This document shows, in pieces, positions 10,323-47,026 of a stretch of 55,650 nucleotides of DNA. The position numbers and the translations under genes are program-made. The stretch covers positions 1 through 55,650 of the forward strand of contig NZ_JAGQCJ010000017.1 of NCBI RefSeq assembly GCF_024346135.1, in the 5' to 3' direction. The stretch comes from Cyanobium sp. CH-040. Its GTDB lineage: Bacteria; Cyanobacteriota; Cyanobacteriia; PCC-6307; Cyanobiaceae. Numbering within the stretch: position 1 is the stretch's first letter; every line of letters starts with the position of its first letter. Under the pieces are notes generated by a model that saw only the letters and a program-made list of their open reading frames with translations, did no database searches and was not told the origin of the DNA.

Positions 10323-11459
10323 TCAGCCCAGGCTGCCGACGCTGCGGCGGAACCGGGCCAGGGCGATCAGAAAGAACAGGCTGCCGATCGACAGCAGGAT
10401 CAGGAACTCCGGCCAGAGCGTCGCCAGCCCGGCACCGCGGTAGAGGATTCCCTGGCCGAGCATCACGTAGTGGGTGTTGGGAGCCAGGAGCATCAGCAAT
10501 TGCACCCACGCCGGCATGCTCTCGCGCGGCGTGATCGAGCCCGAGAGCATCTGCAGCGGCAGCAACACCATCAGCAGCAACAGGCCGAACTGAGGCATCG
10601 AGCGCGCCAGGGTGGCGATCAGGATGCCCATCGAGGTGGTGGCGAACAGGTGCACTCCGGTGCCCAGCAGGAACAGGGGCAGCGAACCGGCCAGCGGCAC
10701 CTGCAGCACGCCCTGCACCACCACCACCAGGGAGCCGGCGGCGGCCAGCAGCACCACCAGCCCCATCGACCAGGCCTTGGCCAGCATGATCTCGAGCGGC
10801 GTCACGGGCATGGCCAGCAGATGTTCGAGGGTGCCCCGGTCGCGCTCCCGCACCAGGGCGGCGCCACTGAGCACCAGCGACAGCATCGTGACCTGGTTGA
10901 TCACCTGCATGATCGAGCCGAACCACACCTTGCTCAGCCCGGGGTTGAAGCGGGCCCGGCTCACCAGCTGCACCGCCGCCGCCGGCGGATCCTGCTCGCC
11001 ACCGAGGAACCTGCGCACCTCCCGCTGCACGATCGCCTGCACGTAGGTGCTGCCGCTGAAGGCCTGGCCGATCCTGGTGGCATCCACGTTGAGCTGCACC
11101 ACGGGCTGCCGGCCGGCCAGCACATCGCGCTGGAACTGGGGCGGGATGTCGAGTCCGAAGGTGTCCTGGCCCAGTTCCAGACGCCGCTCCATCCCGGCTG
11201 CATCCACCAGCTGAGGCGCCTGGAAGTAGGGCGGCAGGAAGGCCCCGGCGATCCGCATCGACAGCGGCGACCGGTCTTCATCCACGATCGCGATCGGCGT
11301 GTGGCGCAGGGTTTCGGGTGAGGCCCGCGTCCCCGCCACCACGGACACCGTGAAGGCGATCAGGATCAGCACCAGCAGGAACCGCTCGCGCAGCAGGCTG
11401 CGCAGCTCCTTGAGCCCCAGGTCGCGCACATGAGCAAGGCGCAGGGGCAGCCGGATCAT
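10323..11459 (-). CDS. ABC-2 type permease (YhhJ-like)
   Basis: Membrane subunit of an ABC exporter, about 378 residues. It begins with a helix after LRDLLRERF-like residues (RSLLRERFLLVLILIAF), continues with a large extracytoplasmic domain (about residues 60-190), then five hydrophobic helices containing VRERDRGTLEHLLAMPVTP, the ABC-2 family signature. The ATG overlaps the upstream ATPase stop by 4 bp. It is the last gene of a three-gene HlyD/ATPase/permease operon like E. coli yhiI-rbbA-yhhJ. Confidence 0.88.
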   Translation of the reverse strand: MIRLPLRLAHVRDLGLKELRSLLRERFLLVLILIAFTVSVVAGTRASPETLRHTPIAIVDEDRSPLSMRIAGAFLPPYFQAPQLVDAAGMERRLELGQDTFGLDIPPQFQRDVLAGRQPVVQLNVDATRIGQAFSGSTYVQAIVQREVRRFLGGEQDPPAAAVQLVSRARFNPGLSKVWFGSIMQVINQVTMLSLVLSGAALVRERDRGTLEHLLAMPVTPLEIMLAKAWSMGLVVLLAAAGSLVVVVQGVLQVPLAGSLPLFLLGTGVHLFATTSMGILIATLARSMPQFGLLLLMVLLPLQMLSGSITPRESMPAWVQLLMLLAPNTHYVMLGQGILYRGAGLATLWPEFLILLSIGSLFFLIALARFRRSVGSLG

Positions 11460-35000: not shown

Positions 35001-35709
35001 CCGGATTGCTTTCATCGATACCGTGAATTTCCAGAAGGAGGCCGATGATAGCGGAAATCAGGGCTGTATCGCTCCCCGGCGTTTCCTCGGTTATGGCTAG
35101 AGCTCGCTCTAGAAGTGGCTGAGCTTTACTGGGAAGATTTTGGTGAATGTATATTGACGCCAGGAGCGTTTGGCTTTGGGCAACTTGAAGGTGATTGGGA
35201 CCTAATTTTTTAATACGAATCGAAAGGGCCTGTTCTAAATGGATTTCGGCTTGGCTGAAAAGACCCTGTCTGCTATAGAGCATGCCTAGATTGTCGATGC
35301 TGGTGACGGTATCAGGATGATCGGGGCCCAGTGCCTTCTCTCTGATCGCCAGGGCCCGCTTGTAGAGTGGTTCAGCCTGGCTGTAAAGAGCTCGCATGGT
35401 GTAAGTAAAAGCCAACCTGCTGGCGATTGAGGCTATGAGCGCATTTCCAGAGTCCAACTCTTGTTCGGCATCGATTAACAGCCTCTCCCATATCACTCCA
35501 GCCGCCTCATAATTACCTCCTGCCTCCAGCCCGTCGGCTTCCTTGACGAGTTCAATGATCTGATCTTCTGCGCTCAGCGCTTCTGCTTTCACCTGGCCCT
35601 CTTGTGCTGGGTTGAACAGTCGACTGCTCTGAGCTCTTGTAGCCAATGGCTCCATGCACTGCAGAAAGCCGTAGATCACCAGGGCGGCAAGCCGCGCAGC
35701 CTGTCGCAT
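32029..35709 (-). CDS. TPR-CHAT protein (caspase-like peptidase with tetratricopeptide repeats)
   Basis: About 1226 residues. Signal peptide MRQAARLAALVIYGFLQC, ending TRA; ATG 35709 fits this better than 35733. About 15 TPR units of the Kinesin-light-chain/TPR_12 type (AIREKALGPDHPDTVTSIDN; YADALSIRARLLGAAHPE) fill residues about 80-720. The C-terminal CHAT domain keeps the dyad: His1045 in IASHGFF and Cys1123 in LSACSTG. CHAT proteases relate to separase, HetF and the TPR-CHAT protein Csx29 of type III-E CRISPR. Base composition changes inside the gene: the CHAT end is GC-rich and the TPR part AT-richer from about 33150 on. It diverges from the CHAT/CHASE2 operon. Confidence 0.9.
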   Translation of the reverse strand: MRQAARLAALVIYGFLQCMEPLATRAQSSRLFNPAQEGQVKAEALSAEDQIIELVKEADGLEAGGNYEAAGVIWERLLIDAEQELDSGNALIASIASRLAFTYTMRALYSQAEPLYKRALAIREKALGPDHPDTVTSIDNLGMLYSRQGLFSQAEIHLEQALSIRIKKLGPNHLQVAQSQTLLASIYIHQNLPSKAQPLLERALAITEETPGSDTALISAIIGLLLEIHGIDESNPALVAFLSHALEISEKNIGADSPETLNLRFILATQYKEQGRDQEAESLLLQNLSLSREKYGDNHSLTGDQFHALGTYYLRRNDEAAAELLSKALAIRARNFGVNHSMTARAMAMLALAEQNLGNLQEAIQLLGKSIPVLQDGSAEDVEFSDRLFEMQADYLLRAGDYQESIKAYKEMLSLRASPEIDLKDSLGMMANLAKSLTGRGLLAEAELIYSDMLQKAESVNAENKNYIEALVNVGFIRTQISLHREAESAFSKAVVVADKLYSQNSRYANEIRLLRDYSRMLIAYRESYLERKDDLGETAWRVQSAFIRTAEELGKHYTKEGKLDSLDNAGLLFMLGEASLLASKPEKAKEYYADALSIRARLLGAAHPEVAILHESIGVIDLMLGQPNQALTALRDAERIRSASVDVHSRRNINSLYLLAVASHAVGDHAARALYLRRLLTANLLNISRESAQLSLGQRERSWRNEFESAFSLAISDGAPEDLTLAIDYRISSHALGLEVHRLQSLLASASQEAKDISHDISSIYSRLANVAVKADERIRLRRIAEDKEKLLYQILPELRIPIVSAVEAAAALPKNGLLVEFQAYRPWVGGSNPWKLLGSKRYQALILRPNGTVDVVQLGEAEPIEKAIAAAFTASAGNELDATARLAEVSDLVLKPLAPHLAGSRQLFLSPDGELHRVPFAALPSPSQPGEVLARSVQLRLLTTGRDLVRFQKPPQAGKAPLVIANPNYDRGRSSPSTLIATAHPKQRWAELDNAKWAPLPATAREGEQIASLLGTQPISGDAATVSLLQRSAGPKVLHIASHGFFVADQEIQPDDPRSALIAGGGQVARFQGEDPLLRSGIVLAGANNPSLDPNDDGLLTALEATALQLDGTELVVLSACSTGAGDIQSGEGLYGLQRALTVAGARTTLLSLWKVDDRATASFMEAFYKRLKAGVGRADALADTQADFRSGVISSRKQGEDWSEHYYWAAWQLVGDWRPVQGL

Positions 35710-35870
35710 GCGATCTGGTCCCTTGCGCCCCATACCCGCTGACCCTGGCCGCTCGCCTATTCATTCAGGCTATGGACGCCTGCAGCAACGGGTTTTCCTG
35801 TAACGCAACAGAAACCGACCCGCACCAAGGCCCGCCAAGGTTGGCATCGTGTGGACACCCGCAGACGGGA
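35710..35870. other. Divergent intergenic region of the CHAT locus
   Basis: This stretch must hold promoters for both the TPR-CHAT gene (minus) and the sigma-like operon (plus). I see no copy of the two-box motif and no clear -35/-10 pair. An in-frame ATG at 35772 could move the sigma-like start into it. Confidence 0.4.
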
Positions 35871-37160
35871 GTGACCAGCAGCAGCTACCGGGAGCTGAGG
35901 GCCCTGATCTCGGCCCGAGGCTCTAGTCAGGGCATCACTATCGGCAGCCTGCACCCCCCCCAGGCCGCCGCTGCCGCCGAGGACTATGGGGTCGATGCCC
36001 CCAGCGCAGCGGGCGACCGGCTGCTGCTGGCCGCCTGCGATGCCCCCGAGGACCGCGAGGGCGCCTTCCTCTGCCTGCGCTGCCATGTCAGCCACCCCCT
36101 CGAGCAGAAGATCTGCGGTCTGTATGGCCAGTTCGGCGACTACTACGGGCTGGATGAGATCGAGCTGGCCAGCTTCGCCCTCGATGACGACGGCCGCCCG
36201 CTCGATCCCGCCCGCCTGCGCGGCCAGCCCACCGCTGCGATCACCCCCTTCACCGCGCAGGTGATCTGCAGCTACGACCCCTCGCGCGGTGCCGGCCTGC
36301 CGCACTGGGCGCGCACCAGGCTCCAGGCCCATAACGACCTCAAGGTCTACCTCAAGGAGCACGGCCTGCTGCTCATCTCCGACTGGGCGCTGCTGGCCGA
36401 CACCAGCTCCCGCCGCATCCGCGGCGCCTGGGAGGTCTTCGGGGGAGGGTCGCTGACGGCCGATCGCGCCGTCCGCCTCCACGGCGCCTACCTGGCGGCC
36501 TACCCGGCGGCCAAGGCCGAGCACCGCCGCCGCAGCCGCCGCAGTTCCGGCTGGCAGCCCGATGCCGCCTTTCTGCACGCCATCGCCCCCGAGCAGCCAG
36601 CGGCCACCACCAGCGAGCAGCTGGAGGCCATGGCCCGCACCGTCCGCCTTGTGCTCACCCAGCAGTGGCAGCGCAGCCGCCAGGCCGATGGCGAGCAGGC
36701 CGATGCACTGGAGGTGCCCGATCCCCGCACCCTCCAGGACCTGAGCGAACAGCCCGAGCACTCCCCAGCCGACCAGCTGACCCTCATCCACGCCGCCCTG
36801 GAGCGCGCCCTCGAGGCGGTGATGCCCGCCGTGCTGGCCCCCGCCGCCAGCGACCCCCAGCTCCACTGCCTCTGGCAGGGCTATGGCGAGGGCCTCACCA
36901 ACACCCCCCTGGCCGAGCGCTGCGGCTGTTCCCGCGGCACCGTGAGCAAGAAGCTCCGCCCCGAGCAGCACGCCTCCACCATCGCCCGCCAGGCCGCCGG
37001 CGAACTGCTGCGCCAGCCGGCGTTCTCGGCCCTGGGCGGCTCAGTGGAGGATCTCGAGCGCATGGTGGAGGCGCTGCGGAATCACCTGCTCATTCCGGAA
37101 CGAGAAGGAGACATCGCCCCCCTGCGCCGCTGGGTGCACCAGCATCTGCCCGTGTCATGA
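35871..37160 (+). CDS. Sigma-like regulator at the head of the CHAT/CHASE2 operon
   Basis: About 429 residues. LRCHVSHPLEQKICGLYGQF and LKEHGLLLISDWALLADT match, from memory, the cyanobacterial proteins annotated as sigma-70-family factors that precede DUF1822 genes. A C-terminal helix-turn-helix resembling sigma region 4 reads PLAERCGCSRGTVSKKL. It probably directs transcription of linked genes; the DNA target is unknown. The start is uncertain between GTG 35871 and ATG 35772. Its stop overlaps the DUF1822 ATG (ATGA). Its 3' coding end contains one copy of the two-box motif. Confidence 0.65.
   Translation: MTSSSYRELRALISARGSSQGITIGSLHPPQAAAAAEDYGVDAPSAAGDRLLLAACDAPEDREGAFLCLRCHVSHPLEQKICGLYGQFGDYYGLDEIELASFALDDDGRPLDPARLRGQPTAAITPFTAQVICSYDPSRGAGLPHWARTRLQAHNDLKVYLKEHGLLLISDWALLADTSSRRIRGAWEVFGGGSLTADRAVRLHGAYLAAYPAAKAEHRRRSRRSSGWQPDAAFLHAIAPEQPAATTSEQLEAMARTVRLVLTQQWQRSRQADGEQADALEVPDPRTLQDLSEQPEHSPADQLTLIHAALERALEAVMPAVLAPAASDPQLHCLWQGYGEGLTNTPLAERCGCSRGTVSKKLRPEQHASTIARQAAGELLRQPAFSALGGSVEDLERMVEALRNHLLIPEREGDIAPLRRWVHQHLPVS
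37080..37103 (+). promoter_or_regulatory. Two-box motif, copy 6 (12-nt spacer, intragenic)
   Basis: AATCA, 12 nt, GGAACGA, then GAAGGAGAC, within the last 27 codons of the sigma-like gene and 53 bp before the DUF1822 ATG. The only copy with a spacer other than 13 nt. It could be an internal promoter of the operon or chance similarity within coding sequence. Confidence 0.5.
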
Positions 37161-38230
37161 CCACCTCCCCCGCCAGCCCCGTGCCTATCGAGCCGCTCGA
37201 GGCCTTTCCCCTTCCGCCCGGCGCCATCGTGCTGCCACCCCCGCTCTGGCAGCAGGTGCAGGAGGACGGTGAAAGGGAGCTGCGGCGGCTGGCGCTGGCG
37301 GCGCTGCGGCAGGCCATGGACGAGCGCGAGCTCCACCTGCCCCTCGGCCCTGAAACCGACCCCACCGATCCGTCGCGCCTGCTGGCGCTCAACCGCTTCG
37401 CCGTGCAGCTGGCCGTCACCGGCATGCTCAGCGACGAGGTGGCCGTGCCGGCAGCGCCCTGGCGTGACGCCGCCACGGCTCCCCAGCTGCTGCTGGTGGC
37501 CGCCATCGATCCGGAGAACGGCGTCGTAGGTGTCCCCGGCGTGCTCACCGCCAGCGAAGTGATCGCCGCAGTGGGGGATGGCGATCAACGGGCGGAGCGG
37601 CTGGTGCTGCCCATCTCCGCGTTCAAGGGTGGCATCGAGCGGCTGTTCACCCTCACCGCTCTGCTGGATCCCGCTGCCCTGCCCCGCCAGGCCCTGCGCC
37701 AGCAGCCCGCCCGCCCTGCCGTGCGCGTGCGTGACTGGCTGGAGGGCCTGCTGCCACCCGCGCTGGGGGATCTGGGCGCCGAACTGGTGCCCGTCACCGC
37801 CGGTGCCTTCCGCCAGGGCGGTGCCACTGCCGATTCCCTCGCCCCCGGCGCCCTGGCCGTGCTCTCAATTCCCCTCGGCCTCACCACCGCCGGCACTTTG
37901 GTGACGGGAGACGCCGCCCAGGCCTGCCTGGAACGGTTCCGTCTGCTGCTGATCCCCACCGCCCAGCCCCCATCGGCCGCCACTGCCCCCGCCACCGACG
38001 CTGCCGAGCGGCTCACGCTGCAGCTGGTGGGTGAGCTGGAGGGGGATCTGCTGCCCGATGGCCTGCTGCTCAGCGCCAGCCAGGGCAGCAGGCGCTCCAG
38101 CGTCAGCTCCGCCAATTCCACCCAGCTCGAGCTGGAACTGCCCGCGGCCCCGGATCTGATCGAGGTCACCCTCACGCCACCGGACGGCACGCCCCTGGTG
38201 CTGCCGCCCCTGCAGTTGCCGGCCGGGTGA
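37157..38230 (+). CDS. DUF1822 family protein
   Basis: About 357 residues, soluble. ALNRFAVQLAVTGMLSDE and VRVRDWLEGLLPPALGDL (for the usual VNLSQWLQG-type segment) mark the DUF1822 family, known almost only from cyanobacteria and nearly always between a sigma-like gene and a CHASE2/CHAT gene. The C-terminal 150 residues are beta-rich (LELELPAAPDLIEVTLTPPDG). The function is unknown. It overlaps the preceding stop and ends 1 bp before the CHAT gene. Confidence 0.75.
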   Translation: MTTSPASPVPIEPLEAFPLPPGAIVLPPPLWQQVQEDGERELRRLALAALRQAMDERELHLPLGPETDPTDPSRLLALNRFAVQLAVTGMLSDEVAVPAAPWRDAATAPQLLLVAAIDPENGVVGVPGVLTASEVIAAVGDGDQRAERLVLPISAFKGGIERLFTLTALLDPAALPRQALRQQPARPAVRVRDWLEGLLPPALGDLGAELVPVTAGAFRQGGATADSLAPGALAVLSIPLGLTTAGTLVTGDAAQACLERFRLLLIPTAQPPSAATAPATDAAERLTLQLVGELEGDLLPDGLLLSASQGSRRSSVSSANSTQLELELPAAPDLIEVTLTPPDGTPLVLPPLQLPAG

Positions 38231-38231
38231 G

Positions 38232-40370
38232 ATGGCCAGCATCGACCTGACCCTTCAGCCCGCCCTGGCCCCCGATCAGCTGACGGCCTTTCTGGTCAGC
38301 CCCGCTGGCAACGAGGTCTTCACCGTGACGGTCCCGCCGGATCTGGCCCACCGGCACCAGCTCTGGCTGCGGCGGTTCATGGCCCATCACGATCCGGCTC
38401 TGCCGGCGCTGCCGGCAGCGGTGCTGCAGGACTACGGCAACAAGCTGGGGGCCGCCATGAACGCCTGGCTGCAGCAGAGCGACTGGGAGCCATTGCGCCG
38501 CGTGCTGGCCCGCCTGCCGGCCCTGCCGCTGCGCCTGCGCTGCCAGGGCACACCAGAGCTGATCGAGCGTCTGCCCTGGGAGGTGCTGGAGCTGGAGCTG
38601 GAGCGGCCGATCTGGCGTCTCGGCGACCCCGGCCACTTCCCCAGCGCTGCACACGCCCGGTGTGGTGTGCGCTCTCCCCGCCTGCTGCTGCTGGTGGGCC
38701 GTGAGGAGGGGCTCGACCTGGAAGCCGACATCGCCGAGCTGCAGCGTCTCGATCGCCAGGGCCGCATCGCCCTGCACACCCTGCGCGGGCCGGACTCCTG
38801 CCTCAGCCGCCTGCGCGCCGCACTCGGCGACAAGCGCGGCTGGGATGTGCTGGTGTTCCTGGGCCATTCCGCCGGTGATCCCCAGGGCGGCGGCCGCCTG
38901 CAGCTCGGCGATGGCCACTGGCTCGGCGGCAACGCCCTCGCCCAGGAGTTCCAGCAGGCCAAGGGCCACGGCCTCTCGCTGGTGCTGCTCAACAGCTGCT
39001 CGGGGATGGACCTGGCCCACTGCTGCACCGCCGCCGGCATCCCCTGGGCCCTCTGCTTCCGCGAGGCCGTTCCCACCACCGCCGCCTCCCTGGCGTTTTC
39101 GCAACTGCTGGGGGCGATGGAGCACGGCCGCAGCTTCCCCGCCGCCCTGCAGCACACCCGCCAGGCTCTGCAGGAGAGCGGTCCGGCCGGCTGTCACCTG
39201 CTGCTCAGCGGCATGTGCGCCGGAGGCGCCCCTGAGCTGCATCTGCCCCTCAGTGCCCGCCGCCGCTTCCGCCTGCGGCTCGCCAGCAGCACGCGCCGCC
39301 AGGCCATCGCCGCTCTGGCGCTGCTGGCAGCGGCTGCCACCGCTGAGCTGCTGCCGGCCAATCCCCTCAGCACCTATCTGCTCGATCGCCGCCTCTATGT
39401 GCAGCGCCTCTGGCGAGAGGCCACCGGCCAGCCCGGCCCCCTCAGCCCCTCCCTGCCGGTGCTGCTGCTGGATGAGCGCCGCGCCTACAAGGAGCTGCAG
39501 GTGGAGGCCACACCGGGGCGGGTGGCTCGCGCCGCCCTGGCGGAGGTGCTGCGGCGCACACCGCCTGGGGCCGTGCCGGTGGTGGGGCTGGATGTGGTGC
39601 TCGACGAGCCCGCTCCCCACACTGCCGAGCTGGCCGCCGTGATCCGCCGCCAGCGCCGGCAGCAGGTGCTGGCCGGCTGGCTGGGAGCCGGCGCCGGGGC
39701 CAGAGCGGCCGGCGTGCGCTCCCAGCCCCTGGAGGAACTGCGGCAGGCAGGGTTGCACGCCCGCGATCTGGGCGTCGGCACCACCGCCGGCCAGGCCGAT
39801 CGCCAGCCGATGCCCCTGCAGCTGCTCTGGGAGGTGAACAGCCGCAACTTCGCCTCGGCTCTCAGCGCTGCTCCCCAGGTGCGCATGCCCCCCGAGGCGG
39901 TGATCGACTGGTCGATCGACTGGACACCGCTGGTTCGGCCCATCGGCGTGGCCGAGCTGAGCGAGCTGCGGGCCCCGGCGCTGGTGGTGGGCACCGACGG
40001 CACGATCGATCGCGACCAGAGCGATCTATTCCATGCCCCCGCCGCCATCCGCCCCGCCCTGGCCGTCTGGGGCGGCCCCAGCGACGTCATCCCCGGCGCG
40101 CTGGTGCAGGCGGTGCTGGCCCAGAGCCTGGCGCTGCGCCACTGGCTCACGCCGGTCTCGCTCAGCGGCTGCACGGCCCTGGCGGCGGGCCTGGGGGTGC
40201 TCACGGCGGCCGCACTGCCAGAACGGCGGCATCGTGGGGTGGCTCTGGGCGCCGCAGCCCTGCTCACCATTCCCCTCAGCCTGCAGCTGGCCACGGCCCG
40301 TCTTGTCCTGGTGCCGATCGTGCTGCCCGTGGCTGCCCTCTCCGCCACATCCCTGCTGCGCCGCGACTGA
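38232..40370 (+). CDS. CHAT protease domain fused to CHASE2-like sensor with C-terminal membrane helices
   Basis: About 712 residues. The N-terminal 350 are a CHAT domain with His212 in VFLGHSAGD and Cys256 in LLNSCSGMD, so the protease dyad is intact. A membrane helix (AIAALALLAAAATAELL) follows, then a CHASE2-like extracytoplasmic domain (VPVVGLDVVLDEP, VVGTDGTIDRDQSD) and C-terminal helices (LAAGLGVLTAAALPE; LVLVPIVLPVAALSATSLL). This layout implies that an outside signal read by CHASE2 controls a cytoplasmic caspase-like protease. It is co-transcribed with DUF1822 and DUF928 genes. Confidence 0.85.
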   Translation: MASIDLTLQPALAPDQLTAFLVSPAGNEVFTVTVPPDLAHRHQLWLRRFMAHHDPALPALPAAVLQDYGNKLGAAMNAWLQQSDWEPLRRVLARLPALPLRLRCQGTPELIERLPWEVLELELERPIWRLGDPGHFPSAAHARCGVRSPRLLLLVGREEGLDLEADIAELQRLDRQGRIALHTLRGPDSCLSRLRAALGDKRGWDVLVFLGHSAGDPQGGGRLQLGDGHWLGGNALAQEFQQAKGHGLSLVLLNSCSGMDLAHCCTAAGIPWALCFREAVPTTAASLAFSQLLGAMEHGRSFPAALQHTRQALQESGPAGCHLLLSGMCAGGAPELHLPLSARRRFRLRLASSTRRQAIAALALLAAAATAELLPANPLSTYLLDRRLYVQRLWREATGQPGPLSPSLPVLLLDERRAYKELQVEATPGRVARAALAEVLRRTPPGAVPVVGLDVVLDEPAPHTAELAAVIRRQRRQQVLAGWLGAGAGARAAGVRSQPLEELRQAGLHARDLGVGTTAGQADRQPMPLQLLWEVNSRNFASALSAAPQVRMPPEAVIDWSIDWTPLVRPIGVAELSELRAPALVVGTDGTIDRDQSDLFHAPAAIRPALAVWGGPSDVIPGALVQAVLAQSLALRHWLTPVSLSGCTALAAGLGVLTAAALPERRHRGVALGAAALLTIPLSLQLATARLVLVPIVLPVAALSATSLLRRD

Positions 40371-40371
40371 G

Positions 40372-41067
40372 ATGCCCAGCCGTCATCCCGTCTTCCACCC
40401 CGCCTCCCTGGCCGCCAGCACCGCCCTGGCCGTGCTGGTGGCCCTCACCCTCGCCGGCAGCCCCAGCGCAGCGCTGGGCGAGGGGCAGCCGACCGTGCTG
40501 CAGCAGCTGCGCGAACTGATCGGCTACAACCCCCGCCAGGCCGTCGGCGGCAGCCGCAGCGGCAGCGCGGTCACGGTGTGTCTGATCACCCCGCGCTTTG
40601 CCGAAAGCGTCGATGGCATCCCGCAAGCGTTGGTCTCGCTGCCCAGTCCCACCCTGCTGGCGGCGGGTGCCCTGAGCGAGGTGCGGCTCGAGCAGGACGA
40701 GCGGATCCTCTGGCAGCGGCGTGGGTCGTCCAGCGAGCCCATCGAGGGGCCGATCCCCTGGCCACTGCCTCCCCTGCAACCCGGTGAAAGCGTGCTGCTG
40801 CGCCTGCGGCCCCGCGGCGCCGCCGGCGCCGACTTCGCCGACATCCGGCTGGTGGCCGCAGGCGAGGCCGAACAGCAACGCGCCCTCGCCCTGCTCGCCG
40901 ATCCCCCCTCCCGCCTGGCGGTGATCGAGCGCGAGGCCCGCGCCGGCCGTGCCGCGCTGGCGTCCGAGCTGCTCTTCTCGCCGGTGGAGCAGCCCTCTGA
41001 GGCCCTCACCGAGCTCCAGCAGCTGCTGATCGCCGGCGCCTGCGGAATCACCCCAGCGGCGCCCTAA
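40372..41067 (+). CDS. DUF928 family secreted protein
   Basis: About 231 residues. The signal peptide has AASTALAVLVALTLAG, ending ALG. The mature start GGSRSGSAVTVCLITP corresponds to the DUF928 GGGTRG...C region, and a mid-protein hydrophobic-polar beta pattern follows. DUF928 genes accompany CHASE2/CHAT operons in many cyanobacteria. It starts 1 bp after the CHAT stop. Its last codons contain a copy of the two-box motif that belongs to darT. Confidence 0.65.
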   Translation: MPSRHPVFHPASLAASTALAVLVALTLAGSPSAALGEGQPTVLQQLRELIGYNPRQAVGGSRSGSAVTVCLITPRFAESVDGIPQALVSLPSPTLLAAGALSEVRLEQDERILWQRRGSSSEPIEGPIPWPLPPLQPGESVLLRLRPRGAAGADFADIRLVAAGEAEQQRALALLADPPSRLAVIEREARAGRAALASELLFSPVEQPSEALTELQQLLIAGACGITPAAP

Positions 41068-41070
41068 CGA
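41046..41070 (+). promoter_or_regulatory. Two-box motif, copy 7 (before darT)
   Basis: AATCA, 13 nt, CTAACGA (two changes), then GAGGAGGGC. The TAA of the second box is the stop codon of the DUF928 gene. The box ends 29 bp before the darT ATG. Confidence 0.65.
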
Positions 41071-41099
41071 GAGGAGGGCAGAGTTTCAGGACTCTGTCC

Positions 41100-41720
41100 A
41101 TGATCGACAGCCTCTTTCACATCACCCATCTTGACAACGTGCCCGGCATCCTCAGTGAGGGACTGCTGTGCCGCAACCGCATCGAGGAAATCAACCTCCC
41201 CTACCTCGACCTCTCCGACGCCGCCTGCCAGGCACGCCGCAGTTGCCGCTATTTCGACGGCCACAGCATCGACCTCCATGACTACGTGCCGCTGTTCATC
41301 GAGCCCCGCAACGCCATGCTCTACCGCCTCCAGAAGACCCTGACGGAAGCAGGCACAGCTGACCAGCTGGCGATTCTCGAGGTGAGCCCCGACCCGATCC
41401 GCTGGCGCGCCAGTCTGCTCGCCGATGGCATCGCCTCCAGTCCGTCCACCTCCCTGTTCCATGCCAGGGATCCCGAGGCCTGGGATGCTCTCGACTGGGA
41501 CGCCATCGACTGCCGCAGCTGGATGGATCAGCCCGACCCCCAGGCTGCCAAACGCCACAAGATGGCGGAGGTGATGGTGGACGACCTGCTGGCGCGCCAC
41601 CACATCCGCAAGGTCTGGCTCAGGACGCCCTCCGCCGCCACGTCGCTTCGCGCCAAGCTGGGGGAGGACAAGCTCCCCGAGATGGTGGTGGATCAGGACC
41701 GCAGCCTGTTCTTCTCATGA
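41100..41720 (+). CDS. darT: DarT: DNA ADP-ribosyltransferase toxin
   Basis: About 206 residues. The opening LFHITHLDNVPGILSEGLL is the DarT NAD-binding start, DYVPLFIEPRNAMLYRL the next conserved block, and HKMAEVMVDDLL holds the catalytic Glu. DarT links ADP-ribose to thymidine or guanosine in single-stranded DNA; several homologues defend against phage. The antitoxin gene overlaps its stop by 4 bp. The two-box motif lies 29 bp upstream, tying the module to the surrounding locus. Confidence 0.92.
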   Translation: MIDSLFHITHLDNVPGILSEGLLCRNRIEEINLPYLDLSDAACQARRSCRYFDGHSIDLHDYVPLFIEPRNAMLYRLQKTLTEAGTADQLAILEVSPDPIRWRASLLADGIASSPSTSLFHARDPEAWDALDWDAIDCRSWMDQPDPQAAKRHKMAEVMVDDLLARHHIRKVWLRTPSAATSLRAKLGEDKLPEMVVDQDRSLFFS

Positions 41721-42421
41721 TCCGCGACACCGCCGCCTCGGTGTTCAACACCGCCGCCGAGGTCGTCACCAACACCGTCAACTGCCAGGGGGTGATGGGC
41801 GCCGGCTTGGCCCTGGAGTTCGCCCTGCGCCACCCCGATCTCGATGCCGACTACCGGCAGCGCTGTGGGGCCGGCACGGTGCAGATCGGTCGGCCCTATC
41901 TCCATCCCGTGGCCTCTGCCGGCTACCGGGCCGTGCTCAACTTCCCCACCAAACAGCACTGGCGCTTCCCCTCACGACTCGCCTGGATCGATCAGGGCCT
42001 GGCCTACATCGCCGCCCACTACCGTCAGGCCACACCACCGATCACCTCCCTGGCCCTGCCGCGGCTCGGCTGCGACAAAGGCGGGCTGGACTGGCTGCAG
42101 GTGCGCCCCCTGATTGAGCGCCACCTGGCCGATCTCCCGGACCTCACCGTCTATCTGTGCAGCGATACCGCCCCGGCAGACGGCATGGAGGCGGCCATGC
42201 TCACGGCCTACAGCCGCGATCAACAGAGCGGTGAGCTGCCGGCTTTCCTCAAGGGCAGAGCCCGCAGTGCCCTGCTGGATGCCCCGCTGCCTGAGCGGTT
42301 CCGCCATCTCGCTGCCACAGAGGGAGTGGGCAAGCAGAGCTATGCCCGCCTGTTTCAGCACTACTACCGCCTGGGCGGCGCCGCCCAGCTCAACCTGCTC
42401 TCCACTGCCGGCGAACGCTGA
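41717..42421 (+). CDS. darG: DarG: macrodomain antitoxin
   Basis: About 234 residues. The macrodomain core reads VTNTVNCQGVMGAGLALEFA, NFPTKQHWRFPSR (with the Lys that acts in de-ADP-ribosylation) and LALPRLGCDKGGLDW. The C-terminal 80 residues form the toxin-binding part (MLTAYSRDQQSGELPAFL). It is shorter than two-domain DarG proteins of some bacteria. It removes ADP-ribose from DNA and binds DarT. Confidence 0.92.
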   Translation: MIRDTAASVFNTAAEVVTNTVNCQGVMGAGLALEFALRHPDLDADYRQRCGAGTVQIGRPYLHPVASAGYRAVLNFPTKQHWRFPSRLAWIDQGLAYIAAHYRQATPPITSLALPRLGCDKGGLDWLQVRPLIERHLADLPDLTVYLCSDTAPADGMEAAMLTAYSRDQQSGELPAFLKGRARSALLDAPLPERFRHLAATEGVGKQSYARLFQHYYRLGGAAQLNLLSTAGER

Positions 42422-43060: not shown

Positions 43061-44695
43061 ATGGCCACCTACCGCTACGCCCGCCCTGAACCAGACGCCT
43101 CATCCGCCACTCCCCAGCCTGCAGAAGCCGCCGATGTCGCCCCCATGCCGGTTGCCACCGGCAGCGCCATGGCCTTCTTGCGCTGGCTGGAGAGCGCTGG
43201 TAATGCCCAGAGCCTGCGCGTCGAAGCCGGTCAGCATCTGTTCAATCAACCCACCACTCCCCAGCCGCGGGCCCATCTCCTGCGCCGCGCTGCTGCTGCC
43301 AGCGGCCTGTGGGTGTTCGCAGATGAGCTGCACGGCAACCAGGCCGTCGCCCAGGACCTCCGCCAGCGCTCCATCGCTGCCTCCGTTCTCCTGTCGGGCA
43401 GTTCGCTGATCGACTACATCAGCTCCCTGGGCCTGTTCGCCTTCATCTTCCGCCTCGCTCCAGCCGGGCCCGTTCCCTACACCCTGGGGCTCTCCACCCT
43501 GCTGCTGCTGTTCGGCAACTGGAGCGGCCGGGCGATGGTCGACCGCCACAAGGGCCAGGCGATTCCCAACATCTCCCTCTCGATCTTCATCGCCCTCTCG
43601 CTCTTCCAGTCCCTCACCGCCGGCATCGGCGTGTTTCTCTTCAACGGGCAGGCGCGGGTGGTGGAGGCCAGGGCCGAGGCCCTGATCGAGCAGGACGTGG
43701 AGGAACGCCGCCGCCGCATCGCCGAGCTGCTCAACCCCGCCCATCCCGCCATCGCCAACGACCAGGAGGCCTGTAACGCCAACCGTCTCCAGCTCGGCCA
43801 GATCGGCGCCGACAACACCGCCTACCAGCAGCTCTCGGTGGAGACCTTCGGGCGCTGGGAGGACCGCCGCGTGCCGCCCAGCGGCCGGCCACGCTGGGAA
43901 CTGGCGAGCTGGCCCCTGGCCCAGTGGCCCCTCTGCCCCCGCGTCGAGCAGCAGCGCGGGCTGCTCCAGCAGCAGGCCGAGCAGCAGCGCACCGAGCTGG
44001 CGGCACTGGAGGCCCAGGTCCGGCAGGCACCCAGCAAGGCCGATTTCCTTGCGAGCAGCCGGCCCCAGGTCTTCCAGCAGGTGTTCCTCCGCACAGGTGA
44101 CGGCCGCATCGAACTCAAGGACGGCGTGCAGGCGTTCGGGGCGGCGTGGGAGTTCTTCTGGAACCCGCCGGCCGAGTACCGCAGCGATCTGATCCTGAGC
44201 TGGGTGTACATGGCCGTCTCGGTCATCACCTCCGCCGGTGCCGTCGCGCTCCTCTACTGGCAGTCCCGGGCCGACAACACCCGCATGTCGTTTGCGGTGC
44301 CCTGCGGCCAGTACCGCTTCAAGTTGCTGAGCGAACTGCGCGACCGGCTGCCGGCCGAGATCCAGCAGTTCTTCCTCGAGCGCCAGCGCCAGCGCCTTGA
44401 GCAGCGCATCCCACCGGCCAGCGGTGTGGCGATCGAGGACATCTCCAACCTCAACCCCGACTTCCAGACCCTCGCCTACCTGATGCAGCGCGGTGATGAA
44501 ACCACCCAGCAGGAGGCGCAGCGCCAGTACTGGCAGCACCTGATCAACCTCTACATCAACGACACCAGCAGCACTGGCGACATTGATTACGACTACCTCT
44601 ACAACAACGTGATCGGCTTCTGGCGCAACCTCAAATCCGCCCACAACGTGCAGGCCGCCCCCGCCCGCTTCATCGATCCTCCGGCCAGCAGCTGA
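43061..44695 (+). CDS. Large membrane protein of the motif-bearing locus
   Basis: About 544 residues, family not recognised. Three or four helices lie at about residues 110-200 (LIDYISSLGLFAFIFRL; SLSIFIALSLFQSLTAGIGVFLF), then a coiled coil of about 150 residues (EQQRGLLQQQAEQQRTELAAL), a further helix (LSWVYMAVSVITSAGAVALLYW) and a 150-residue cytoplasmic tail. The layout resembles membrane-bound effectors or sensors. The two-box motif is 26 bp upstream; the following peptidase has no motif of its own. Confidence 0.7.
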   Translation: MATYRYARPEPDASSATPQPAEAADVAPMPVATGSAMAFLRWLESAGNAQSLRVEAGQHLFNQPTTPQPRAHLLRRAAAASGLWVFADELHGNQAVAQDLRQRSIAASVLLSGSSLIDYISSLGLFAFIFRLAPAGPVPYTLGLSTLLLLFGNWSGRAMVDRHKGQAIPNISLSIFIALSLFQSLTAGIGVFLFNGQARVVEARAEALIEQDVEERRRRIAELLNPAHPAIANDQEACNANRLQLGQIGADNTAYQQLSVETFGRWEDRRVPPSGRPRWELASWPLAQWPLCPRVEQQRGLLQQQAEQQRTELAALEAQVRQAPSKADFLASSRPQVFQQVFLRTGDGRIELKDGVQAFGAAWEFFWNPPAEYRSDLILSWVYMAVSVITSAGAVALLYWQSRADNTRMSFAVPCGQYRFKLLSELRDRLPAEIQQFFLERQRQRLEQRIPPASGVAIEDISNLNPDFQTLAYLMQRGDETTQQEAQRQYWQHLINLYINDTSSTGDIDYDYLYNNVIGFWRNLKSAHNVQAAPARFIDPPASS

Positions 44696-45578: not shown

Positions 45579-46022
45579 TCAGCGCCGCAGCTGATCCAGG
45601 AGCGGGTCGGATTCAGCAGCCAGCGGATTCACCACGCGAACCCCACGCCAGCTGAAGCCTGGATGAAGGTCTTCCGTGAGCAGCAGCCGGGCACCGCCCT
45701 CGGCGGCCACGTTGAGCACCAGCGCATCCCAACTGGAAAGCTGATGGGCCACGCAGAGATCCATGGCTCCGCGCCAGGCGGCAGCACTGCTCTCCAGCAC
45801 CGGGAAGGCATCCATCCAGCTCAGCACCGCTTCCTGTGCCTGCTGTGCGCTGCGTCCGGCCTTGCCGGTGAGCACCCGGAACAATTCCCCCAGGCACTGC
45901 AACGGCACCACCAGGTCGGCATCCGCCAGCTGCCGCAGCAGCTCCCGGGTGGCGTTCACCCTCTCCCCATCTCCGAACCCCTCCGCGTAGACCAGCAGGT
46001 TGGTGTCGAGTGCTGCCCGCAT
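45579..46022 (-). CDS. PIN-domain toxin (VapC-like)
   Basis: About 147 residues: ALDTNLLVYAEG gives the first Asp, LGELFRVL the Glu, SSWDALVLNVA the third acid and LLTEDLHPG the fourth, so the PIN RNase site is complete. The ATG overlaps the antitoxin stop by 4 bp. Confidence 0.88.
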   Translation of the reverse strand: MRAALDTNLLVYAEGFGDGERVNATRELLRQLADADLVVPLQCLGELFRVLTGKAGRSAQQAQEAVLSWMDAFPVLESSAAAWRGAMDLCVAHQLSSWDALVLNVAAEGGARLLLTEDLHPGFSWRGVRVVNPLAAESDPLLDQLRR

Positions 46023-46297
46023 CAGTCGTAGAGCGCATCGCGCTGCCAGGTGCGGGGTTCGCCGCTGGCGGGCTGAGCGGCCAGCCGAGCCAGCAGTGCG
46101 CGGCGCGCCTGGCCAAAGGACTGCCTGCCGGCCTGGACCGGAGCGAGGGTGGCGACGGGGCGCCCGTGGGACTGCACCGTGAAGCTCTGCCCCTGGGCCA
46201 CCTGACGCAGCAGAGCGGAGAAGGAGCGATTGGCCTCGGAGGCACTGACTACAACGGGTTCCGCCTCAGCCACGGCCAGGGATGTAGTGAGTTTCAC
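46022..46297 (-). CDS. Phd/YefM-family antitoxin
   Basis: About 91 residues from a GTG at 46297. VVVSASEANRSFSALLRQV and FTVQSHGRPVATLAP form the Phd/YefM DNA-binding half; the C-terminal tail would wrap the PIN toxin. A perfect 8-3-8 dyad covers its start codon and is probably its operator. Confidence 0.8.
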   Translation of the reverse strand: MKLTTSLAVAEAEPVVVSASEANRSFSALLRQVAQGQSFTVQSHGRPVATLAPVQAGRQSFGQARRALLARLAAQPASGEPRTWQRDALYD

Positions 46298-46301
46298 TAC
46301 A
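46283..46301. promoter_or_regulatory. Perfect 8-3-8 palindrome at the antitoxin start
   Basis: TGTAGTGA-GTT-TCACTACA. It overlaps the GTG start of the Phd-like antitoxin and lies upstream of the divergent HD-domain gene at 46358. Autoregulatory binding by the antitoxin, perhaps also affecting the HD gene, is inferred. Confidence 0.6.
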
Positions 46302-46357
46302 GTAATGCCATCAGGTAGCGGCGGCGACACGGGAAGACCGGCGCAAGACTCCGCACC

Positions 46358-47026
46358 ATGAGCGAGAAACCACCAGCCCACAGCCCCCGTTACATCGAGG
46401 CCCTGCAGTGGGCCGCCGAGCTCCACGGCCGCCAGCGCCGCAAGGGCAAGGAGGTGCCCTACATCTCCCACCTGATCGCCGTCAGCGCCCTGGTGTGGGA
46501 GGACGGCGGCGATGAGGAACAGGCGATCGCGGCCCTGTTGCACGACGCCATCGAAGATGCGGGCGTGAGCGCCGAGCAGATCGCCGAGCGCTTCGGGGAG
46601 CGGGTGGCGCAGATCGTGGAGGACTGCACCGATACCAACGGTCCTGTGACTGCCGGCGGCGAGAAGGAACCGTGGCTGGTGCGCAAGCGGCGCTATGTGG
46701 AGCACCTGCTGCATGTACCCCTGGATTCGCTGCTGGTGAGCGCGGCTGACAAGGCCCACAACGCCCGCGACCAGATGCTCGATGCCCGCCGGGACCCCAG
46801 CAGCTGGAGCCGCTTCAACGCCGGCATCGACGGCACCGCCTGGTATCAGCTGCGCATCCACCACACACTCAAGCGTCGGCTTCCGGACAGCCGCTCCACC
46901 GAACTTCTCGGAGAGGCCCTGCAGGAGCTGCTCGACAGCCAGGCCTACCGGCAGGTCGTGCCCCAGGGCATCGCGCCCTCGGTGTGGGCCGCGGGTTACG
47001 CAAAGCGGCAGGAGCCCGGGCCCTGA
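46358..47026 (+). CDS. HD-domain phosphohydrolase, SpoT/MESH1-like
   Basis: About 222 residues. ALQWAAELHGRQRRKGKEVP, YISHLIAVSAL, and LLHDAIEDAGVS form the HD metal site as in the hydrolase half of RelA/SpoT; DKAHNARD continues it. No synthetase domain follows. It may hydrolyse alarmones or other nucleotides. It diverges from the Phd-VapC pair. Confidence 0.82.
   Translation: MSEKPPAHSPRYIEALQWAAELHGRQRRKGKEVPYISHLIAVSALVWEDGGDEEQAIAALLHDAIEDAGVSAEQIAERFGERVAQIVEDCTDTNGPVTAGGEKEPWLVRKRRYVEHLLHVPLDSLLVSAADKAHNARDQMLDARRDPSSWSRFNAGIDGTAWYQLRIHHTLKRRLPDSRSTELLGEALQELLDSQAYRQVVPQGIAPSVWAAGYAKRQEPGP

Follow-up and report, generated by a model that had tools for sequence, protein, structure and literature searches.

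A four-gene operon in Cyanobium sp. CH-040 that may couple a CHAT-CHASE2 membrane protease to a divergent sigma-70-like factor through a DUF1822 relative

A 55,650-nt stretch of Cyanobium sp. CH-040 (contig NZ_JAGQCJ010000017.1 of assembly GCF_024346135.1, forward strand), referred to here as the window, contains four packed plus-strand genes (Table 1): a putative divergent sigma factor (gene 1), a DUF1822 relative (gene 2), a protein with CHAT protease and CHASE2 domains (gene 3), and a DUF928 relative (gene 4). They are spaced by -4, +1, and +1 bp, as in the original prediction of a tight operon made from the DNA sequence: the ATG of gene 2 at 37157 shares four bases with the TGA ending gene 1 at 37160, and the CHAT/CHASE2 and DUF928 genes each begin one base past the previous stop. 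The GTG start of gene 1, at 35871, matches the conserved N-terminus of its orthologues. No RNA families (at gathering scores) or tRNAs were found in the window. The operon is real, and its gene set probably serves to switch genes on when something is sensed outside the cell; the route by which it might do so, from the CHAT protease through the DUF1822 protein to the sigma factor, is the subject of what follows.

In Pfam, the gene 1 product has helix-turn-helix matches only, all below threshold, and the NCBIfam sigma70-ECF (extracytoplasmic function) model matches residues 304-362 with E 0.015, far below its cut-off. Profile comparison places it (99.7%) among the long sigma-like proteins that other cyanobacteria encode. 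Its AlphaFold2 (AF2) model is mostly helical (mean pLDDT 89.6), and structural comparison with this model supports the sigma-like fold that had been predicted: sigma-70 factors make up all 50 printed rows of the VIA comparison (those named RPSB, SIGA, and RPSD are ones that we take to be sigma factors) as well as Foldseek ranks 1-31. The region 2 fold is seen in the match to 5h6x (RpoS region 1.2-2; Z 7.6, root-mean-square deviation (rmsd) 2.8, 96 of 96 residues), and residues 17-265 align to RpoS 53-222 (6uu8; rmsd 8.1, 160 residues aligned). This alignment, together with helices at residues 171-278, the region-3 position, suggests a region 3, which ECF sigma factors lack. Full-length sigma alignments of the model run as far as residues 379-383; their rmsd of about 21 Å presumably reflects a different placement of the domains. 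The identification follows from the agreement of the rows, rather than from any one score, and from the model as a whole. On that footing, gene 1 appears to encode a divergent sigma-70 factor that has region 2 and probably region 3, and carries a helix-turn-helix where region 4 would be; its predicted function would be to direct transcription through the core polymerase.

The reading of the C-terminal helix-turn-helix as sigma region 4 held only in part: a helix-turn-helix is present at that place, but the evidence for region 4 alone is weak. In sequence profiles its best match is a deoxyribonucleoside regulator helix-turn-helix (3e-5), with SigF at E 0.017, and the C-terminal 91 residues by themselves retrieved no sigma factor from solved structures up to E 10. 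The further suggestion that this domain recognizes a local motif found no support, no motif, repeat, or sigma-70-type promoter match having been found; there are no noteworthy repeats around the operon at 35500-36000 or 40950-41150. The strings CTGATTC and GATTCCA, which occur upstream in 4 of 7 close relatives, were rejected, as 2 of 15 shuffle sets reach the same level.

Separately, a common leader is found upstream of the long sigma gene at several other loci (L049, L050, L051, L058, L059, L073, L077, and L100), with a strong AGGAGGTG ribosome-binding-like element. This element sits before a short stretch further upstream, not before the sigma start; at L051 and L100, TTG comes next, then a single codon and a stop.

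Neither gene 2 nor gene 4 has a Pfam match at E up to 1. The clade to which the gene 2 product belongs aligns with true DUF1822 proteins in profile-profile comparison (97% probability). Its AF2 model (mean pLDDT 87.6) has few helices and consists mostly of strands, and a tetratricopeptide repeat (TPR) label for DUF1822 was rejected on this ground. The C-terminus of the model is an immunoglobulin (Ig)-like sandwich. For the N-terminal domain, D212 (Z 8.4, rmsd 3.7 over 129) is among the top six VIA rows, the other five being Eco15I, two entries for NhoI, and two for Hjc; D212 and Hjc presumably belong to the PD-(D/E)XK fold. NhoI and Eco15I are described as PD-QXK enzymes of the PD-(D/E)XK group in the available text of PMC11347163. 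A Z near 8 is modest, yet the agreement of the rows is notable; other folds are possible. Foldseek returned weak E-values with Ig-type rows in the lead, and a viral library gave unnamed phage proteins and one restriction endonuclease, at rank 37. Two stretches are marginally above the 1.6 hydropathy threshold (1.62 and 1.66); the model folds them into strands and a helix.

Catalytic PD-(D/E)XK activity was considered for this protein and rejected. Within residues 25-180 there is no conserved catalytic lysine of a (D/E)xK motif, the best lysine column holding lysine in only 16 of 44 sequences, so an active nuclease is unlikely. Acidic columns are better kept (E119 and E120 in 34 of 44, D93 in 23 of 44); the window protein has P119. 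The model thus points to a PD-(D/E)XK-like domain, apparently devoid of catalytic residues, followed by an Ig-like sandwich. The linker between the two is far longer in six other DUF1822 proteins (L192, L193, L210, L225, L226, and L232), where it carries a recurring pattern such as 'LIQTT.DDEIRWQSAELLW.LNPQHP' and resembles an inserted helical repeat.

In gene 3, the CHAT domain is matched by Pfam above its cut-off (E 2e-7), with about 150 residues N-terminal to it; CHASE2 is below cut-off in the window protein (E 0.002), but aligning this protein with 13 homologues, chosen from 45 other places found by similarity, gave a CHASE2 match in all 14 rows. The putative catalytic residues had been placed correctly at His212 (in 'FLGHSAG') and Cys256 (in 'LNSCSG'). 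Both are invariant in the 14 rows and are kept in 41 of 42 CHAT/CHASE2 genes reached via DUF1822, the one remaining gene being a fragment that is gapped at this point; the dyad is also present at 94 of 94 loci, a count that is partly by construction because the patterns used to fetch 80 of these contained GH or NSC. Pfam and the conserved dyad together bear out the prediction of a CHAT protease. Of the two outcomes that had been named as fatal to the original prediction, absence of sigma region 4 and absence of a CHAT fold, neither occurred: CHAT is recognized by Pfam, with the caveat already given for region 4 on its own. Hydropathy shows one membrane segment before CHASE2 and several after it, with the same broad pattern in relatives (at locus L045 the first segment is under the threshold), which supports the outward-facing CHASE2 part originally proposed.

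In profile-profile alignment the clade of gene 4 matched a set of 34 downstream proteins at 97.5% (E 6e-12), PF06051 being recognized in 18 of the 34; a smaller DUF928 profile gave no match to it. Its N-terminus resembles a signal peptide, and gene 4 is accordingly best described as a predicted exported DUF928 relative. Taken with the hydropathy of gene 3, this would put CHAT inside the cytoplasm, and CHASE2 and DUF928 outside it.

Table 1. Features of the operon and its divergent neighbour (positions in the window)
Feature	Position	Strand	Basis or remark
Sigma-70-family factor, 429 aa, divergent (gene 1)	35871..37160	+	AF2 model, structural comparison
Helix-turn-helix in place of sigma region 4, residues 329-362	36855..36956	+	Weak on its own
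DUF1822 relative, 357 aa (gene 2)	37157..38230	+	Overlaps gene 1 by 4 bases; profile-profile comparison
PD-(D/E)XK-like domain of DUF1822, residues 33-174	37253..37678	+	No conserved catalytic lysine
Arg219 codon, flexible inter-domain linker of DUF1822	37811..37813	+	Conserved across DUF1822
Ig/Fn3-like beta-sandwich of DUF1822, residues 232-357	37850..38227	+	Model
CHAT-CHASE2 membrane protease-sensor, 712 aa (gene 3)	38232..40370	+	
CHAT catalytic region, residues 163-316	38718..39179	+	Pfam
His212 codon	38865..38867	+	Alignments
Cys256 codon	38997..38999	+	Alignments
First predicted membrane segment, residues 358-376	39303..39359	+	Hydropathy only
CHASE2 loop, predicted outside, residues 377-641 (Pfam match 377-502)	39360..40154	+	Pfam, hydropathy
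C-terminal membrane segments, residues 642-709	40155..40358	+	Hydropathy only
DUF928 relative, 231 aa, signal-peptide-like N-terminus (gene 4)	40372..41067	+	Profile-profile comparison, hydropathy
Divergent neighbour TPR-CHAT protein, 1234 aa	32029..35733	-	Adjacent in relatives too

A full-length CHAT/CHASE2 protein is encoded in 6 of 37 genomes of the window's family, several of them incomplete; four of these six belong to the genus, for which 13 genomes were covered. Among cyanobacterial loci picked by their CHAT/CHASE2 gene, 76 had enough flank to be read (16 more were excluded for short flanks), and at 42 of these all four genes stand on the expected sides. The other 34 comprise loci with DUF1822 and DUF928 but no detected sigma gene (11), with DUF928 only (11), lacking DUF928 (7), with DUF1822 only (1), and with none of the three (4). 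The four-gene order is conserved far beyond chance.

Seen from the DUF1822 side, the picture is one of two modules. DUF1822 is present in 146 of 242 sampled cyanobacterial genomes. From the highest-scoring entries for these genomes, 80 DUF1822 loci were selected by hand: CHAT/CHASE2 lies downstream at 41, 10 are mixed, and the other 29 are called solo, their fetched flanks having shown no CHAT or caspase-like gene. At 65 of the 80 loci a sigma gene was detected no more than 400 bp from DUF1822 (30 of 41 with CHAT/CHASE2, 25 of 29 solo, and 10 of 10 mixed), while a same-strand DUF928 gene is found at 33 of the 41 loci with CHAT/CHASE2 versus none of the 29 solo loci. The sigma gene therefore goes with DUF1822, and DUF928 with CHAT/CHASE2: the operon consists of a sigma-DUF1822 module and a CHAT/CHASE2-DUF928 module, each of which also occurs alone.

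Trees give a similar division. Sigma genes were sorted by profile into a long and a short class; the homology of the short proteins to the long ones is weakly supported, and they were treated as a separate class. For the same 85 loci, the DUF1822 tree requires one change of sigma class and the CHAT/CHASE2 tree six, with five on a second CHAT/CHASE2 tree; these are quick trees, from which loci with no detected sigma gene were left out. A single clade for the CHAT proteins of short-sigma loci is rejected (p-AU 9e-7). The DUF1822 tree still shows one sigma-class change when extended to 127 loci, and CHAT presence changes seven times on it among 158 loci. One change on the DUF1822 tree, set against five or six on the CHAT/CHASE2 trees, indicates that DUF1822 is the sigma factor's own partner and that the protease is exchangeable. 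On the simplest reading, the sensor-protease would be an exchangeable input that addresses the sigma-DUF1822 pair through some common feature.

These observations can be joined into a relay. Its first module would be the sigma-70-type factor with DUF1822, which would hold the sigma factor inactive or position it; the second would be the outside CHASE2 sensor with the inside, caspase-like CHAT protease, aided by the exported DUF928 protein. A signal from outside the cytoplasm would activate the protease, which would then act on DUF1822, most likely through cleavage, and the freed sigma factor would allow its target genes to be transcribed. A precedent exists in Craspase, in which a CHAT protease cuts Csx30 and so relieves inhibition of CASP-sigma (available text of PMC10028731), and by analogy an inhibitor or adaptor acted on by the protease is the favoured role for DUF1822. 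As a whole, the relay, with its two-module build, is a plausible reading to which we give slightly less than an even chance. Its parts are not equally secure: the role of DUF1822 as sigma partner is much better supported than the proteolytic step, and the membrane topology, the inhibition by DUF1822, the signal, and the target genes enter it, like that step, as predictions.

The nearest competitor keeps the partnership and reverses its sign. RbpA and Crl act as sigma co-activators or loading factors, and DUF1822 might do likewise, with the protease switching the response off or turning the pair over. That DUF1822 keeps its sigma gene at 25 of the 29 solo loci, where no protease was detected, fits such a role, and the single sigma-class change on its tree would suit any obligate partner; the repeated gain of a dedicated sensor-protease, as seen in the seven changes of CHAT presence, suits relief of inhibition at least equally well. 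The sequence evidence separates neither from the other, and we regard co-activation as a somewhat unlikely alternative to inhibition.

A cleavage site was sought in the DUF1822 linker. Arg219 is conserved in 41 of 44 sequences, and a hydrophobic-Arg pair (Ala counted as hydrophobic) is found in 70 of 74 linkers, compared with a mean of 48.5 and a maximum of 60 in 2000 shuffles. As a protease-specific site Arg219 was nonetheless rejected, being equally kept where CHAT/CHASE2 is absent.

Several results count against the relay, and the distribution of this arginine is the first of them. It is present at 39 of 41 loci with CHAT/CHASE2 and at 27 of 29 without (99 of 110 and 46 of 48 over 158 loci), which leaves it without specificity for the protease. 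The residue before it is hydrophobic at 38 of 41 loci with CHAT/CHASE2 versus 2 of 29 without (97 of 110 versus 10 of 48 over 158 loci), but this association follows clades, and the 6 independent pairs (median p 0.5) are too few for significance. Many sigma-DUF1822 pairs stand with no protease at all, and there DUF1822 must act by other means. For the gene 1 model, the statistics of the structural matches are weak (the best Foldseek E is 0.047 and the highest Z 8.4), and according to the tool's own warning helical models with Z under about 13 may share only a common arrangement. Among 7 close relatives, no shared upstream motif is clear of shuffles, and thus no autoregulatory promoter motif was found. 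Lastly, the substrate, its cleavage, and the inhibition of sigma are at this point predicted only.

The missing protease-specific site would be no difficulty if the relay were not proteolytic, the CHAT fold acting as a binding platform by which the sigma-DUF1822 pair is kept sequestered at the membrane; such an arrangement needs no cleavage site. However, Cys256 and His212 are kept almost throughout the two sets of homologues that were not selected for them (14 of 14 and 41 of 42), which argues for catalysis, and sequestration seems very improbable. For the proteolytic relay itself, the Craspase precedent suggests that a conserved site is not required: Csx30 cleavage sites differ between orthologues (available text of PMC11106740).

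The neighbourhood of the operon bears on a third alternative, which derives from a published hypothesis: protease auto-activation followed by sigma-driven transcription (available text of PMC8195603). Here the caspase-fold part would cut itself and then attack other targets, in cell death or defence, and the sigma factor would only control expression of the set and of linked genes. A second CHAT protein is indeed close by. Divergent from the sigma gene, and 137 bp from it, is a minus-strand gene for a TPR-CHAT protein whose CHAT domain is complete, and a second CHAT gene is found within about 6 kb of CHAT/CHASE2 in all five informative family genomes (G000, G004, G005, G006, and G014, with two or three CHAT matches each), although these cases are not independent; in the sixth genome with CHAT/CHASE2 (G030), the contig is 4 kb and not informative. 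The second gene is upstream in some of these genomes and downstream in others. CHAT occurs in 7 of the 31 other family genomes, and in the wider set a second CHAT gene is in the flanks of 34 of 94 loci. Directly after the operon, at 41100-42421 on the plus strand, is a DarT-DarG toxin-antitoxin pair, which would also suit a defence setting; it has the same place at locus L031 and, judging by matching antisense frames, at L032. On the other hand, the N-terminus of the TPR-CHAT protein is signal-peptide-like by eye (under the hydropathy threshold), so that this protein may lie outside the cytoplasm, and none of the four operon proteins is marked by PADLOC. Auto-activation toward other targets is in our view unlikely, and the relay through DUF1822 is preferred to it.

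Other genes nearby can be noted in passing. At a different Cyanobium locus (L047), a protein with Sigma70 region 2 (10651-11280, minus strand; Pfam E 3.5e-13) is encoded directly upstream of a TPR-CHAT gene, a second sigma-CHAT pairing. In the window, positions 43061-44695 (plus strand) encode a protein of unknown function that matches the PADLOC entry C3a124 (E 5.5e-32). A close copy, interrupted in G006 by an in-frame TGA, is present in only 3 of the 13 genus genomes, its own included, so the region around the operon appears to be variable; at L033 an ortholog directly follows the DUF928 gene. Further on, at 46022-46864 (minus strand), is a reading frame with a weak Phd/YefM antitoxin match near its C-terminus (E 1e-5, below cut-off).

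The window operon is a further example of a gene set described in 2021, when neighbourhoods of EACC2-caspase, sigma factor, and DUF1822 genes were published (eLife; PMC8195603). The original prediction had called the operon type known by co-occurrence and its function not; these neighbourhoods agree with that, although the paper does put forward the hypothesis given above. The published system likewise has a caspase-fold protease with a variable C-terminus, which can be CHASE2, beside a sigma gene and DUF1822; at its N-terminus the published protease carries the EACC2 alpha+beta domain. It differs from the present account, as far as its available text goes, in naming the sigma factor as ECF, whereas the window sigma model can be aligned from region 2 through region 4 and has helices where region 3 would lie; in naming DUF1822 as a TPR protein, whereas the window model is PD-(D/E)XK-like plus Ig-like; and in containing no mention there of DUF928, which is part of the window operon. 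What is new here relative to that text is the reassignment of these domains, the two-module structure, and the trees that tie DUF1822 to the sigma factor and not to the protease. Among the open-licence literature matches listed, the gene set is described in this paper alone, and there was no experimental study of it.

Two other cyanobacterial cases resemble parts of the operon. A Trichodesmium protein classed as a metacaspase (PMC3501461) also has an N-terminal caspase-fold domain, an outside CHASE2, and one plus three membrane helices, but no sigma-DUF1822 pair is named beside it in the text available. In Nostoc punctiforme, a CHASE2 sensor gene is likewise clustered with a DUF928 gene, in a WD40/CHASE2/DUF928 cluster for which an acid-stress response of the DUF928 protein sll1891 is cited (PMC5587647); that cluster has two WD40 proteins, with neither a sigma factor nor DUF1822 named in the available text.

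In its general logic, the relay would resemble proteolysis of the RseA/RsiW type, in which an outside signal leads through proteolysis to sigma release (as cited in the available text of PMC10028731); there, however, the anti-sigma factor is a membrane protein cut by DegS, whereas in the window the protease itself carries the sensor, and DUF1822 exceeds the hydropathy threshold only marginally. A function for the sigma-DUF1822 pair would annotate a large uncharacterized regulatory class, given the frequency of DUF1822 among the sampled genomes, and could be tested in laboratory strains.

By analogy, the closest tested counterpart would be Craspase. Both systems have a CHAT protease with a His-Cys pair and a protein that stands between protease and sigma factor (available text of PMC10028731 and PMC11106740); Craspase is RNA-activated through a CRISPR effector, whereas the window system has a predicted membrane sensor. 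A Pfam scan of the operon and neighbour proteins, which did not extend to other frames or to the rest of the genome, found no Cas families (gRAMP/Cas7-11 effector). A bolder proposal, which we advance more tentatively than the relay as such, is that the operon represents a counterpart of Craspase at the membrane: a caspase-fold protease that senses the outside, an inhibitor derived from a nuclease fold, and a sensor-protease cassette repeatedly re-plugged onto different sigma-inhibitor pairs. If the relay does operate in the proposed manner, caspase-fold proteases in cyanobacteria would act, beyond cell death, as membrane switches for transcription, by the same logic as Craspase.

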